In this document: in pieces, positions 9,306-55,656 of the stretch
Layout of the letters: each line of letters begins with the position of its first letter
How positions within the stretch are numbered: position 1 is the stretch's first letter
Assembly: GCA_009777485.1 (NCBI GenBank)
Contig: WRLT01000008.1
Coordinates: 1-64,000, forward strand
Direction of reading: 5' to 3'
Length of the DNA: 64,000 nt
Source: Bacillota bacterium
GTDB taxonomy: Bacteria; Bacillota; Clostridia; Christensenellales; Pumilibacteraceae
Program-made: the position numbers and the translations under genes
Notes under the pieces: generated by a model
Databases searched by the model: none
The model's input: the letters and a program-made list of their open reading frames with translations, nothing else
Told to the model about the DNA's origin: nothing

Positions 9306-9335
9306 TTGACATACCGCAAGTTTATGCTGTATACT
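9306..9335 (+). promoter_or_regulatory. Sigma-A-type promoter of the purC operon
   Basis: TTGACA (9306-9311) and TATACT (9330-9335) are separated by 18 bases; transcription should start near 9342. It drives the attenuator leader and the long purC-dapL gene string. The preceding stretch (9181-9305) is AT-rich and shows no gene. Confidence 0.85.
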
Positions 9336-9344
9336 AATAACAGT

Positions 9345-9412
9345 TGAACAATGGCGTTCATCCACGGTGCGTGCGGCTGATTCCGACGTACCTGCGGGAT
9401 GGACGCTTTTTT
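9345..9412 (+). promoter_or_regulatory. ANTAR-type antiterminator/terminator leader of purC
   Basis: Hairpin 1: TGAAC (9345-9349) pairs with GTTCA (9356-9360) around the hexaloop AATGGC, which has A1 and G4. Its 3' arm is also the 5' arm of a terminator: 9354-9363 pairs with 9397-9406 (10 bp, one G-U), followed by six T. An inner hairpin occupies the terminator loop. The two structures exclude each other, as in ANTAR-controlled leaders. The ANTAR protein is encoded within this operon at 16046. Sequence and layout match the leaders at 37334, 47586 and 55599. Not a purine or PRPP riboswitch by inspection. Confidence 0.72.
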
Positions 9413-9433
9413 GGTTTCAAGGGAGGCTAAACT

Positions 9434-14697: not shown

Positions 14698-16020
14698 ATG
14701 ACCCACACGGCAAAAGAAGTAGTAGCTTTCGTAAAAGACAACGACGTAAAATTTATTCGTCTTACCTTTTGCGATTTGTTCGGTGTTCAAAAAAACATCG
14801 CGATTATGGCGGAGGAGTTAGAGGGAGCGTTTAAAAACGGCGTTTCGTTTGACGCGCACGCCATTAAAGGCTTTAAGGATGTAACCGATTCGGATTTATT
14901 GCTGTACCCCGACCCTGTTACGCTTAGCTTGCTGCCGTGGCGGCCGGGTCCGGGCAGAGTAGCGCGTTTTTACTGCGATATCAAAAATCCGGACGGTTCG
15001 GTGTTTTTACTGGGCGGGCGTTCGCTGTTAAAAAAGGTATTAGCCCGCGCCGATAAAATGGGTTATGCCTGCAAGGTAGGCGCGGAGTGCGAGTTTTATC
15101 TGTTTAAGCTGAGCGCAGAAGGCGAGCCCGCTATGATTCCGTTTGATAAGGGCGGCTACTTAGACATGGCGCCCTTAGACAAAGGCGAAAATATGCGCCG
15201 TGAAATTTGTTTAACGCTTGCGGAAATGAGCATCAATCCCGAAACATCGCACCACGAGCAAGGTCCCGGACAAAACGAAATTGTGTTTAAGTTCGGCGAC
15301 GCGTTAGAGGCAGCCGACAATCTGCAAACCTTTAAAACCGTTGTTAAGGCAATAGCCGAGCGCAACGGCTTGTTTGCGTCGTTTATGCCAAAGCCGATTT
15401 TAGATGCGGCAGGCAGCGGCTTACACATCAATCTTTCGCTTTCGCAAAACGGCCGAAACATATTTAAAAGCGCGGCAAGCGGAGAGCATTCCGAAATTGC
15501 CGACAGCTTTATTGCGGGAATCCTTTCTAAAATACAAGAAATCACGCTGTTTTTAAATCCGATTGCAAATTCGTATGAACGGCTAGGAAGGTTCGAGGCG
15601 CCTAAATTTGTGTCGTGGTCGCACCACAACCGTTCACAGCTGATTAGAATTCCTGCGGCAAGCGGCGAAAAGGTGCGCATGGAGCTGCGTTCTCCCGACC
15701 CGTCGGTTAACCCGTATATAGCGTTAGCGTTAATTATTTCGGCTGGGCTTGACGGAATAGAAAAAAAGACGCAGCTGCCGCCTCCTGTAAACGCCGATTT
15801 GTTTACGGCGGACGCCTCCTTAACCAAAGCGTTAAAAAAGCTTCCCGCAACGCTGCAAGAGGCTATACAATTTGCCCAAAACAGCAAATTTGTTAAAGAG
15901 GTAACCGGCGAAAATCTGTTACACAGATACCTAAACATTAAAAAGATTGAAGCGGAGGAATTTGCTGCGGCAAAGGACAAAGCCGAATTTTACAAAAGTA
16001 AATACTTTCACGTTTATTAA
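14698..16020 (+). CDS. glnA: Glutamine synthetase type I
   Basis: ATP-dependent amidation of glutamate with ammonia, the source of glutamine for the surrounding amidotransferases. The 440-residue GSI is complete: beta-grasp N-domain, ECEFYLF metal site (about residues 141-147), GPGQNEI (about 190), SGLHINLSL (usual SGMHxHxSL, so the second His is Asn while the first metal-binding His is kept), NRSQLIRIP and ELRSPDPSVNPY. SD AAGGAG lies at 14683. The next gene encodes an ANTAR regulator, an arrangement common in Clostridia. It shares the cell with a second, unrelated type III enzyme (48325). Confidence 0.96.
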   Translation: MTHTAKEVVAFVKDNDVKFIRLTFCDLFGVQKNIAIMAEELEGAFKNGVSFDAHAIKGFKDVTDSDLLLYPDPVTLSLLPWRPGPGRVARFYCDIKNPDGSVFLLGGRSLLKKVLARADKMGYACKVGAECEFYLFKLSAEGEPAMIPFDKGGYLDMAPLDKGENMRREICLTLAEMSINPETSHHEQGPGQNEIVFKFGDALEAADNLQTFKTVVKAIAERNGLFASFMPKPILDAAGSGLHINLSLSQNGRNIFKSAASGEHSEIADSFIAGILSKIQEITLFLNPIANSYERLGRFEAPKFVSWSHHNRSQLIRIPAASGEKVRMELRSPDPSVNPYIALALIISAGLDGIEKKTQLPPPVNADLFTADASLTKALKKLPATLQEAIQFAQNSKFVKEVTGENLLHRYLNIKKIEAEEFAAAKDKAEFYKSKYFHVY

Positions 16021-16045: not shown

Positions 16046-16627
16046 ATGAAAAGCGCGCTGATTGTAACCCATACCGAAAAAAGCGCCGCATTCGTTGCGG
16101 AGCAGCTTTTCGCATGCGCCGTTACAGAGCATACAGTTGCCTCATCAGGCGGGGAAGCGCGCAGAATTTTATTAGAAAAGGATTTCGACCTTGTTTTTAT
16201 TAACAGTCCGCTTAACGACGAAACGGGAGAGGCGTTAGCGCGGCGCATTGCGCTAAAAGAAATCAGTCAGGTTATTTTGGCGGTAAAAACCGAATTGTAC
16301 GAGATGGTTTCGGCGGTTTGCGAAAACGACGGAGTGCTAACCGTAGCAAAGCCGCTTAGCCGCGAAATGTTCCGTCAAGCGTTAAGCTTAGCAAGGGCGT
16401 CTAAGGCAAGGCTTTTAAAAATTCAAACCGAAAACGAAAGCCTTAAAGAAAAAATCGAAACCATTAAAATTGTAGACCGCGCTAAAAGCATTTTAATAGC
16501 GTCCTGCGGAATGACCGAGCAGGAGGCGCACCGCTATATCGAAAAGAAGGCTATGGATACGCGTACCTCACGACGGCTTGTTGCCGAAAGGATGATAAAA
16601 GATTATGAAGAACCGTCGGAAAATTAA
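16046..16627 (+). CDS. ANTAR-domain RNA-binding antitermination regulator with pseudo-receiver
   Basis: 193 residues. Residues 1-115 resemble a response-regulator receiver, but the phospho-acceptor position is Asn (FIN53SPL); the Lys-Pro near the end of the fold (AKP, 101-103) is kept. A coiled-coil segment (120-142) leads into an ANTAR domain (about 132-188: RAKSILIASCGMTEQEAHRY, then the helix with MDTRTSRRLVAERMI). ANTAR proteins (AmiR, NasR, EutV) bind RNA hexaloop hairpins and prevent terminator formation. Candidate targets in this window are the leaders of purC, lysA, amiS-glnN and gdhA. With no acceptor Asp, control is probably by a partner or ligand rather than phosphorylation. ATG follows AAAAAGGA; the 3' end overlaps purF by 23 bases. 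Confidence 0.9.
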   Translation: MKSALIVTHTEKSAAFVAEQLFACAVTEHTVASSGGEARRILLEKDFDLVFINSPLNDETGEALARRIALKEISQVILAVKTELYEMVSAVCENDGVLTVAKPLSREMFRQALSLARASKARLLKIQTENESLKEKIETIKIVDRAKSILIASCGMTEQEAHRYIEKKAMDTRTSRRLVAERMIKDYEEPSEN

Positions 16628-36737: not shown

Positions 36738-36757
36738 TGCAAAAAAACCAAAACACA

Positions 36758-36786
36758 TTGACAGGCATAAAACCTTGTGTTAGAAT
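36758..36786 (+). promoter_or_regulatory. Promoter of the 4-TM protein gene
   Basis: TTGACA (36758-36763), 17-base spacer, TAGAAT (36781-36786). No hexaloop/terminator leader follows, unlike neighbouring nitrogen units. Confidence 0.75.
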
Positions 36787-36820
36787 AAGAGTAACAGATA
36801 AGATATTTTAAGAGGTGTTT

Positions 36821-37297
36821 ATGGAAGAAAAACAAAACGTATCGGGAATTTTAAGAAATCAAGACGGCAGTAAATTTTCACGCTTTCAATTATTCTTTTT
36901 CACGATAATTATAATGACGATAGCATTTATAATTATTAACAGTATCATTTTAATTTCGTATTTTAGATTCGAATCTACATTTGGCGGTTTAAACAGTATC
37001 GTTTTTATATTTGTACTATTTTTTGCTGTTCTCTATTCTACGTTAGGAATCTATTTATTTTTACGGCATAAGAAAAAACCGATTCATAAAGCACCTGTCA
37101 TTTCATTATGGATATTGACATGTTTATTAATAGGTGCATCTTTTGCATTAAGGATTTTATTTTTTAGTCTAGTTTTTGATTTAATATTTGTGATGATATT
37201 ATGTATTTTAGAACTAATGCTATCTCTAATGAGCATGGTTGCAATCATAGTTCATTTAGTCCGATTAAAAAATAAGTTGATTTGCTTAAAAAATTGA
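36821..37297 (+). CDS. Hypothetical small integral membrane protein (4 TM)
   Basis: Unrecognised. ATG 36821 follows AGAGG by five bases and is preferred over the in-frame GTG at 36815; 158 residues. After a polar N-terminus of about 28 residues come two hydrophobic helices (about 30-55 and 65-88), a basic loop (RHKKKPIHK), and two more helices (about 98-120 and 125-150), ending in a basic tail. The gene is clearly richer in A+T than its neighbours, suggesting recent acquisition or weak selection. It has its own promoter and sits just before the lysA promoter. No function can be assigned. Confidence 0.72.
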   Translation: MEEKQNVSGILRNQDGSKFSRFQLFFFTIIIMTIAFIIINSIILISYFRFESTFGGLNSIVFIFVLFFAVLYSTLGIYLFLRHKKKPIHKAPVISLWILTCLLIGASFALRILFFSLVFDLIFVMILCILELMLSLMSMVAIIVHLVRLKNKLICLKN

Positions 37298-37326
37298 TTG
37301 ACAAGCGGCAGCGTTTTTGATATAGT
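37298..37326 (+). promoter_or_regulatory. Promoter of the lysA-gatCAB-glutamate synthase operon
   Basis: TTGACA (37298-37303), 17-base spacer, TATAGT (37321-37326), starting directly at the end of the previous gene. Predicted +1 near 37333, one base before the leader hairpin. Confidence 0.85.
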
Positions 37327-37333
37327 GTAGAAA

Positions 37334-37391
37334 GATAAACAAAGGTGTTTATCGGCAAGGGCAGTACTGTCCGCCGATAAGCACCTTTTTT
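37334..37391 (+). promoter_or_regulatory. ANTAR-type antiterminator/terminator leader of lysA
   Basis: Hairpin 1: GATAAAC (37334-37340) pairs perfectly with GTTTATC (37347-37353) around the hexaloop AAAGGT (A1, G4). Terminator: 37344-37356 pairs with 37373-37385 (13 bp, one G-U) and is followed by six T; a small inner hairpin sits in its loop. The shared arm makes the two folds exclusive. It is the best-paired member of the family of leaders in this window. Confidence 0.75.
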
Positions 37392-37408
37392 ATTTGGGAG
37401 AACGCACC

Positions 37409-47547: not shown

Positions 47548-47576
47548 TTGCGTTATTTTGCAGTATATGGTATAGT
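47548..47576 (+). promoter_or_regulatory. Promoter of the amiS-glnN operon
   Basis: TTGCGT (47548-47553), 17-base spacer, TATAGT (47571-47576). The -35 box is weak, so activation is possible. Predicted +1 near 47583, three bases before the first leader hairpin. Confidence 0.7.
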
Positions 47577-47585
47577 AATAACATA

Positions 47586-47628
47586 AAAGCACGAAGGTGT
47601 GTTTTCGGTTCGGAAACACATCTTTTTT
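47586..47628 (+). promoter_or_regulatory. First ANTAR-type antiterminator/terminator element of amiS-glnN
   Basis: Hairpin 1: AAAGCAC (47586-47592) with GTGTTTT (47599-47605; complementary with one G-U in the centre) around the loop GAAGGT. Terminator: 47596-47607 pairs with 47611-47622 (12 bp with wobble pairs) and is followed by six T. Same layout as the purC, lysA and gdhA leaders; loop position 1 is G instead of A. Confidence 0.66.
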
Positions 47629-47677
47629 CTATTTAAGGGTAGGCTGTCCGATGTCGGCACGGAGCGGCAAATCCTAA

Positions 47678-47723
47678 AAAAGCACAAAGGCGTGTTTCCA
47701 AGCAAACGCGCCTTTATGCTTTT
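47678..47723 (+). promoter_or_regulatory. Second, tandem hexaloop/terminator element of amiS-glnN
   Basis: About 90 bases after the first element the same stem recurs: AGCAC (47681-47685) with GTGTT (47692-47696) around AAAGGC (A1, G4). The competing long hairpin pairs 47678-47697 with 47704-47723 almost completely; its U-tract is weak (TTTT then A-rich). The stretch between the two elements (47629-47675) shows no gene. Two elements in series would give stricter control of this operon. Confidence 0.6.
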
Positions 47724-50434: not shown

Positions 50435-50505
50435 TAACAAATTTTTATTAGCTTTGCAGGCATTAGGTAACGCTAAATGCTTTCAAAGTTGATAAAAATT
50501 TGTTA
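50435..50505. repeat. Long inverted repeat between glnN and the NuoE-like gene
   Basis: A perfect 14-bp A+T-rich inverted repeat (50435-50448 and 50492-50505) extends inward through further paired bases (CTTTG/CAAAG and GCATT/AATGC). As RNA it could end glnN transcription, though its stem base is weak. The right arm runs into the TATACT box (50504-50509) of the next unit, so it could also act as an operator. Confidence 0.65.
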
Positions 50506-50509
50506 TACT
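50504..50509 (+). promoter_or_regulatory. Possible -10 box before the NuoE-like gene
   Basis: TATACT with no convincing -35 (TTTCAA at best spacing). It lies at the end of the inverted repeat 50435-50505, which suggests an activator-dependent or repressed start, or simple read-through from glnN. Confidence 0.4.
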
Positions 50510-50538
50510 ATTAACAAAGGAGTTAATAAGCAAGATAC

Positions 50539-55560: not shown

Positions 55561-55590
55561 TTGACAGCCGTATGGTTTTTGTGCTATACT
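55561..55590 (+). promoter_or_regulatory. Promoter of gdhA
   Basis: TTGACA (55561-55566), 18-base spacer, TATACT (55585-55590). Predicted +1 near 55597, two bases before the leader hairpin. Confidence 0.85.
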
Positions 55591-55598
55591 AAATCATA

Positions 55599-55656
55599 AT
55601 AAACGAAGGCGTTTATCTCTAACCCGAAATCGGGTAGTTGATAAACGCCTTTTTTT
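55599..55656 (+). promoter_or_regulatory. ANTAR-type antiterminator/terminator leader of gdhA
   Basis: Hairpin 1: ATAAAC (55599-55604) with GTTTAT (55611-55616) around GAAGGC. Terminator: 55608-55617 pairs perfectly with 55640-55649 and is followed by seven T; an inner hairpin (ACCCG/CGGGT) fills the loop. Loop position 1 is G and can pair with C6. Same layout as at purC and lysA. Confidence 0.7.

Follow-up and report, generated by a model that had tools for sequence, protein, structure and literature searches.

The DNA analysed here (the window) is a stretch of 64,000 nucleotides, positions 1 to 64,000 of contig WRLT01000008.1, from a bacterium of the Pumilibacteraceae (Clostridia). It contains lysA as the first gene of an apparent operon, and the following features were assigned to the region of the lysA leader:

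37298..37326, + strand: lysA-operon promoter, sigma-70-type, TTGACA-17 nt-TATAGT, 11/12 consensus positions
37334..37353, + strand: putative antiterminator hairpin with a single hexaloop, GATAAAC[AAAGGT]GTTTATC; A1/G4 loop, closing AC/GU as in EutV targets
37341..37391, + strand: predicted intrinsic terminator of the leader; it cannot form together with the hexaloop hairpin; 71.6 bits with R1, the covariance model of the five elements of this genome
37409..38650, + strand: lysA (diaminopimelate decarboxylase), first gene of the apparent operon lysA-gatC-gatA-gatB-glutamate synthase

The promoter boxes TTGACA (37298-37303) and TATAGT (37321-37326) are separated by a 17-nt spacer. The predicted +1 of the transcript is approximately A37333, and the hexaloop hairpin begins at about +2. 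This hairpin consists of GATAAAC (37334-37340), the loop AAAGGT (37341-37346) and GTTTATC (37347-37353). The 5′ arm of the terminator, which extends from the loop to 37356, is formed by the loop and the 3′ strand of the hexaloop hairpin; the 3′ arm lies at 37373-37385 and the T-tract at 37386-37391. Folding of the full leader resulted in the terminator (-34.7 kcal/mol, z = -10.4), and folding of the first 32 nt alone resulted in the hexaloop hairpin (-7.0 kcal/mol).

The sequence-only reading had described a lone A1/G4 hexaloop that lies at the 5′ end of the transcript and overlaps the terminator, with no room for an upstream hairpin after the predicted +1. Both observations were confirmed, the hexaloop at 37334-37353 and the terminator to 37391, since a scan of 36740-37400 returned no C:G-closed A1/G4 hexaloop besides the lysA hairpin. 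No second hexaloop motif was found between +1 and the U-tract, and the inner loops AGTACT, GAAATC and CTGATT do fall outside the motif, as had been noted. The dual-hexaloop class (Ramesh 2012) is characterized by two hairpins in series with a short linker, by the A1/G4 loop and by a hairpin that overlaps and excludes an intrinsic terminator; the lysA leader has the second and third of these characters and lacks the first. It does contain the minimal ANTAR motif of PMC8934654, which is one hexaloop with G4. An Rfam search of the window returned no family at gathering score.

Other elements and the ANTAR gene of the genome

Five such elements were found genome-wide, one each before purC, lysA and gdhA and two in series before glnN, and all of them lie inside the window; the whole-genome statements made here, for the elements as for the ANTAR gene, are based on model searches. 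The genome matches of R1 consisted of these five, their reverse-strand reflections and one match with E = 9.9. The reverse-strand matches in the window were rejected as extra elements, being mirror images of the terminators. The four elements in addition to that of lysA are:

9306..9413, + strand: purC leader; promoter TTGACA-18-TATACT; hexaloop TGAAC[AATGGC]GTTCA at 9345-9360; terminator
47548..47628, + strand: first element of the glnN (GSIII) leader; hexaloop AAAGCAC[GAAGGT]GTGTTTT at 47586-47605; terminator
47680..47723, + strand: second glnN element, in series before the same operon; hexaloop AAGCAC[AAAGGC]GTGTTT; its own, weaker terminator
55561..55656, + strand: gdhA leader; promoter TTGACA-18-TATACT; hexaloop ATAAAC[GAAGGC]GTTTAT at 55599-55616; terminator

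The distance from the -10 box to the loop is exactly 14 nt for purC, lysA and gdhA and 16 nt for the first glnN element, and the promoter-bearing leaders of this genome have one hexaloop each, located at the 5′ end. The A1/G4 loop is present in lysA (AAAGGT), purC (AATGGC) and the second glnN element (AAAGGC); loop position 1 is G, not A, in two of the five elements (gdhA, GAAGGC; first glnN element, GAAGGT). The doubling of single-hexaloop terminators before the glnN operon (47586-47723) has similar counterparts in the relatives L076, L104, L106, L110, L125 and L144.

A perfect hairpin before nuoE (50509-50530, TATTAAC[AAAGGA]GTTAATA) was rejected as a member, as it is without a terminator and the predicted start lies inside the hairpin. 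The Shine-Dalgarno sequence is within its loop AAAGGA, and a role as a target is improbable given the overlap of the hairpin with the predicted -10 box. An inverted repeat of approximately 20 nt (50436-50510, AACAAATTTTTAT...ATAAAAATTTGTT) lies between glnN and nuoE, partly over the nuoE promoter, and is a possible operator.

The ANTAR gene and its neighbor are as follows:

14698..16020, + strand: glnA (glutamine synthetase type I); immediately precedes the ANTAR gene, as it does in relatives
16046..16627, + strand: gene for an ANTAR protein, the sole one in the genome; degenerate receiver domain and ANTAR domain

This sole ANTAR gene is on the same contig as all five elements, which places the putative regulator and its targets within one 46-kb stretch. 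The ANTAR domain (PF03861) scored 57.3 bits against a curated cut-off of 27.3, and the protein matched the Rv1626, AmiR, EutV and NasR structures by sequence. Its receiver domain is below the Pfam cut-off and has Asn aligned at the phospho-acceptor position; the intact receiver with a phospho-acceptor Asp that characterizes phosphorylation-controlled ANTAR proteins of the EutV type was thus not found. Control is therefore probably exerted via a partner or ligand, and glutamine synthetase is a candidate controller because glnA is the usual neighbor of the gene. Of the EutV residues, Met172 is retained, Tyr164 is replaced by His and Arg142 is not conserved. The gene belongs to the run purC-purB-purA-glmS-glnA-ANTAR-purF-carA-carB-guaA-pyrG-hisH-hisF-purL-argG-argH (9434-33006), which it shares with nearly all genes of glutamine-dependent biosynthesis. 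The section from purB to carB recurs in a termite-gut-like Treponema MAG (L056), where the proteins are 60-75% identical to those of this run; this suggests that it was transferred between phyla.

Single-hexaloop leaders in relatives

To survey leaders with the loop sequence left unconstrained, a free-loop scan was performed for any hexaloop hairpin located just after a promoter and overlapped by a terminator. The scan covered 638 kb, consisting of the surroundings of 37 ANTAR-gene relatives from named genomes and the window. It returned 41 matches, of which 31 had A1/G4 loops, and 30 of these 31 were C:G-closed. When the same 638 kb were shuffled five times with a Markov model, each shuffle gave 0-4 matches and no A1/G4 loop, which excludes a chance origin of the A1/G4 leaders. 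Covariation in a 38-leader alignment was 0.53 for the hexaloop helix (0.25 shuffled) and 0.82 for the terminator helix (0.31 shuffled). Because the aligned leaders had been chosen by requiring four hexaloop base pairs and ten terminator pairs, the percentages paired are in part a product of this selection, and the free-loop scan provides the cleaner evidence. The loop consensus, AANGGC closed by C:G, is nearly invariant, and conservation between promoter and terminator is confined to the loop and the top stem pairs.

Among 293 genomes of the class, a second model, R2, detected leaders in 77, and ANTAR genes were detected in 154. The ANTAR gene was present in 70 of the 77 leader-positive genomes (odds ratio 15.7, p = 2e-16, with the 293 genomes taken as independent). 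The seven leader-positive genomes with no detectable ANTAR gene include G112, which is 96% complete and in which GSIII/glutamate synthase and an ammonium transporter are preceded by convincing single-hexaloop leaders (L126, L133). Leaders close to ANTAR genes were found in Erysipelotrichales and Spirochaetes, too, and leaders were rarer in the rest of the phylum. Judged by these leader sequences, the single-hexaloop architecture is conserved over Clostridia, Erysipelotrichales and Spirochaetes. Some R1 and R2 matches (L014, L016, L018-L021 and L025 are examples) were discarded on reading as palindromic terminators with no hexaloop.

The number of hexaloops per leader was counted in two sets. 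In 105 promoter-anchored leaders the median distance from the -10 box to the loop was 15 nt (13-16 nt in 60, 10-24 nt in 93), and the 5′ strand of the hairpin usually starts 0-7 nt past +1. There was no true upstream A1/G4 hexaloop among these 105; the only one reported was an artefact, a terminator loop having been taken as the main motif. In the promoter-independent set, an upstream A1/G4 hexaloop was present within 70 nt in 8 of 123 curated leaders. Those of L076, L110 and L125 were rejected as part of a preceding element with its own terminator, and those of L081 and L126 as falling in or before the promoter. Candidate classical pairs thus amount to approximately 3 of 123 (L065, L087 and perhaps L127). 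Dual motifs are therefore detectable by the method, yet rare in this clade, and R2 is not biased against dual leaders because the model takes in only 10 nt before the loop. The candidate dual leaders of [Clostridium] viride (L087:12240-12300, - strand) and a Lachnospiraceae MAG (L065:4480-4560) occur with ANTAR proteins of the same ANTAR clade and are useful controls.

The 97 downstream genes included GSIII (27), class-II amidotransferase, mostly glutamate synthase (24), GSI (10), GDH (6), Amt (5), CTP synthase (4), purC (3) and ANTAR itself (2). The predicted targets are mostly glutamine synthetase, glutamate synthase, GDH, Amt and glutamine-using biosynthesis. The lysA gene fits this set because it is first in a run that leads via gatC, gatA and gatB to glutamate synthase. 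In relatives the leader is often immediately 5′ of glutamate synthase, and L056, the Treponema relative, has a leader ahead of gatA and glutamate synthase genes. Divergent promoters of glutamate synthase and GSIII (or GSI), each with a single-hexaloop leader, were observed in L023, L024, L026, L075, L078, L101, L104 and L116. In L027 and L028 the ANTAR gene itself is directly preceded by a single-hexaloop leader, which suggests autoregulation.

Proposed mechanism and alternative readings

The lysA leader is very probably a reduced ANTAR antiterminator, in which one dimer would act on one 5′-terminal hexaloop with no recruitment hairpin (P1). A reduced target of this kind had been offered as one option by the sequence-only reading, and it is supported by approximately 120 comparable leaders and by their co-occurrence with ANTAR genes. 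The leader would function as a transcription attenuator under the glnA-linked ANTAR protein (16046-16627). Of the two alternative structures, the terminator is the stabler one in 104 of 105 leaders, which makes termination the default, and by default the lysA transcript is predicted from folding to form the terminator and stop near 37391. When active, presumably under nitrogen limitation as for NitR, the ANTAR protein would bind the AAAGGT hexaloop formed by the first ~20 nt. The 5′ arm of the terminator would then be kept in the hexaloop hairpin, and the polymerase would read into lysA-gatCAB-glutamate synthase. One ANTAR dimer on one hexaloop would be enough, and P1 would not be used. The role of nitrogen limitation is presumed by analogy with the cited account of NitR of Clostridium saccharobutylicum, which is said to antiterminate under that condition (Stutz et al. 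2007, cited in PMC6316151).

The G at loop position 1 in two of the five elements and the seven leader-positive genomes with no detectable ANTAR gene speak against this reading. Deletion of P1 or a change of the linker strongly reduced or abolished induction in the EutV system (PMC3369931), and NasR bound a single hairpin with ~12 uM compared to 1 uM for the pair, about 12-fold weaker (PMC7496416). From these results a single hexaloop should work poorly unless the ANTAR clade differs. It may suffice because this clade binds more tightly, or because the position at +1 favors early capture. We tentatively extend the second possibility to a proposal that may well be wrong: one-hexaloop ANTAR attenuators may constitute a promoter-coupled class, where the role of the recruitment hairpin is taken over by the location of the single hairpin at +1. 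The first RNA to emerge from the polymerase would be captured by the dimer while the enzyme escapes the promoter or pauses early, and one RNA contact would then be enough.

One dimer might instead bridge single hexaloops on separate RNAs, as the sequence-only reading had also suggested; these could be divergent nascent transcripts, or transcripts made by polymerases that follow one another along one gene. Many relatives have divergent glutamate synthase and GSIII promoters a few hundred bases apart with one hexaloop each, and in the EutV crystal one dimer carries two hexaloops from different RNA molecules (PMC8934654). Bridging is nevertheless unlikely. The purC, lysA and gdhA leaders are not divergent pairs but stand alone, and a EutV dimer engages the hexaloops of any one RNA one by one, which makes bridging unnecessary; the EutV authors themselves judged trans binding during transcription unlikely (PMC8934654).

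It is still less probable that the target is a classical dual hairpin whose first hairpin is hidden by a start further upstream, the case that the sequence-only reading had named as fatal to its own view. The +1 of lysA is a predicted start, and the candidate dual motifs of the three relatives named above indicate that such pairs occur. Against this, more than 90 leaders have near-consensus promoters at a close and similar spacing, upstream partners are limited to the ~3 of 123 counted with promoters ignored, and the region upstream of the lysA promoter to 36740 has no C:G-closed A1/G4 hexaloop. A leader of the same attenuator type whose loop is read by an RNA-binding factor other than the ANTAR protein is given equally little chance. 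The leader-bearing genomes with no detectable ANTAR gene would agree with such a factor, but the loop and closing pairs fit the EutV/NasR consensus, the association with ANTAR genes is strong at the level of genomes, and leaders adjoin ANTAR genes, even directly upstream (L027, L028). An ordinary constitutive terminator or an unregulated hairpin that stabilizes the 5′ end of the RNA is scarcely credible: the terminator is far stabler than the hexaloop hairpin, but left unregulated between a strong promoter and its gene it would silence the gene, and terminator pairing needs no constancy at loop positions 1 and 2 such as that of the C:G-closed AANGGC loop.

Comparison with known ANTAR systems

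In the published model, ANTAR antitermination requires a first, recruitment hairpin. The EutV-RNA structure showed that one dimer contacts one hexaloop of a given RNA at a time and that isolated P1 and P2 hexaloops are bound equally well; the minimal ANTAR motif was redefined as a single hexaloop, with P1 still needed for EutV antitermination (PMC8934654). According to this 2022 paper, single-hexaloop sites were to be expected only in settings where a transcribing polymerase imposes no time pressure; it left such sites as a question and called for bioinformatic and experimental work (PMC8934654). Under the reduced-antiterminator reading, the single-hexaloop sites would themselves be transcription attenuators, and the rule in this clade. 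A large part of the ANTAR regulon, with the central nitrogen assimilation of many Clostridia, would then escape searches for dual motifs, and the single-hexaloop leaders would provide a natural system to test the purpose of P1. No description of single-hexaloop antitermination leaders was found in the open-access journal literature searched. Nitrogen genes, including glutamate synthase, were already known to be under ANTAR control (PMC3369931).

The EutV leaders of Enterococcus faecalis (eutP, eutG, eutS, eutA) are similar to the lysA leader in their A1/G4 hexaloop closed by AC/GU and in a terminator-overlapping hairpin that is mutually exclusive with the terminator, and the regulators share the ANTAR response-regulator architecture. 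They differ in that EutV requires both P1 and P2, with a linker of 5-12 nt and P1 near +25, whereas here one hairpin is located at about +2; EutV also has a phosphorylatable receiver, in contrast to the degenerate receiver with Asn at the phospho-acceptor position. NitR of Clostridium saccharobutylicum is, as far as the cited account goes, likewise an ANTAR regulator of GS/GOGAT genes, a likeness that concerns the regulator. The NasR/nasF leader of Klebsiella shares ANTAR antitermination, the C:G closing pair, the A1/G4 loop and nitrogen genes, and is different in its NIT sensor domain and two-hairpin target. The AmiR/AmiC system of Pseudomonas is similar in that AmiR has a degenerate receiver with an ANTAR domain and His at the EutV Tyr164 position, although AmiC senses amides and the target has been described as a dual hairpin.
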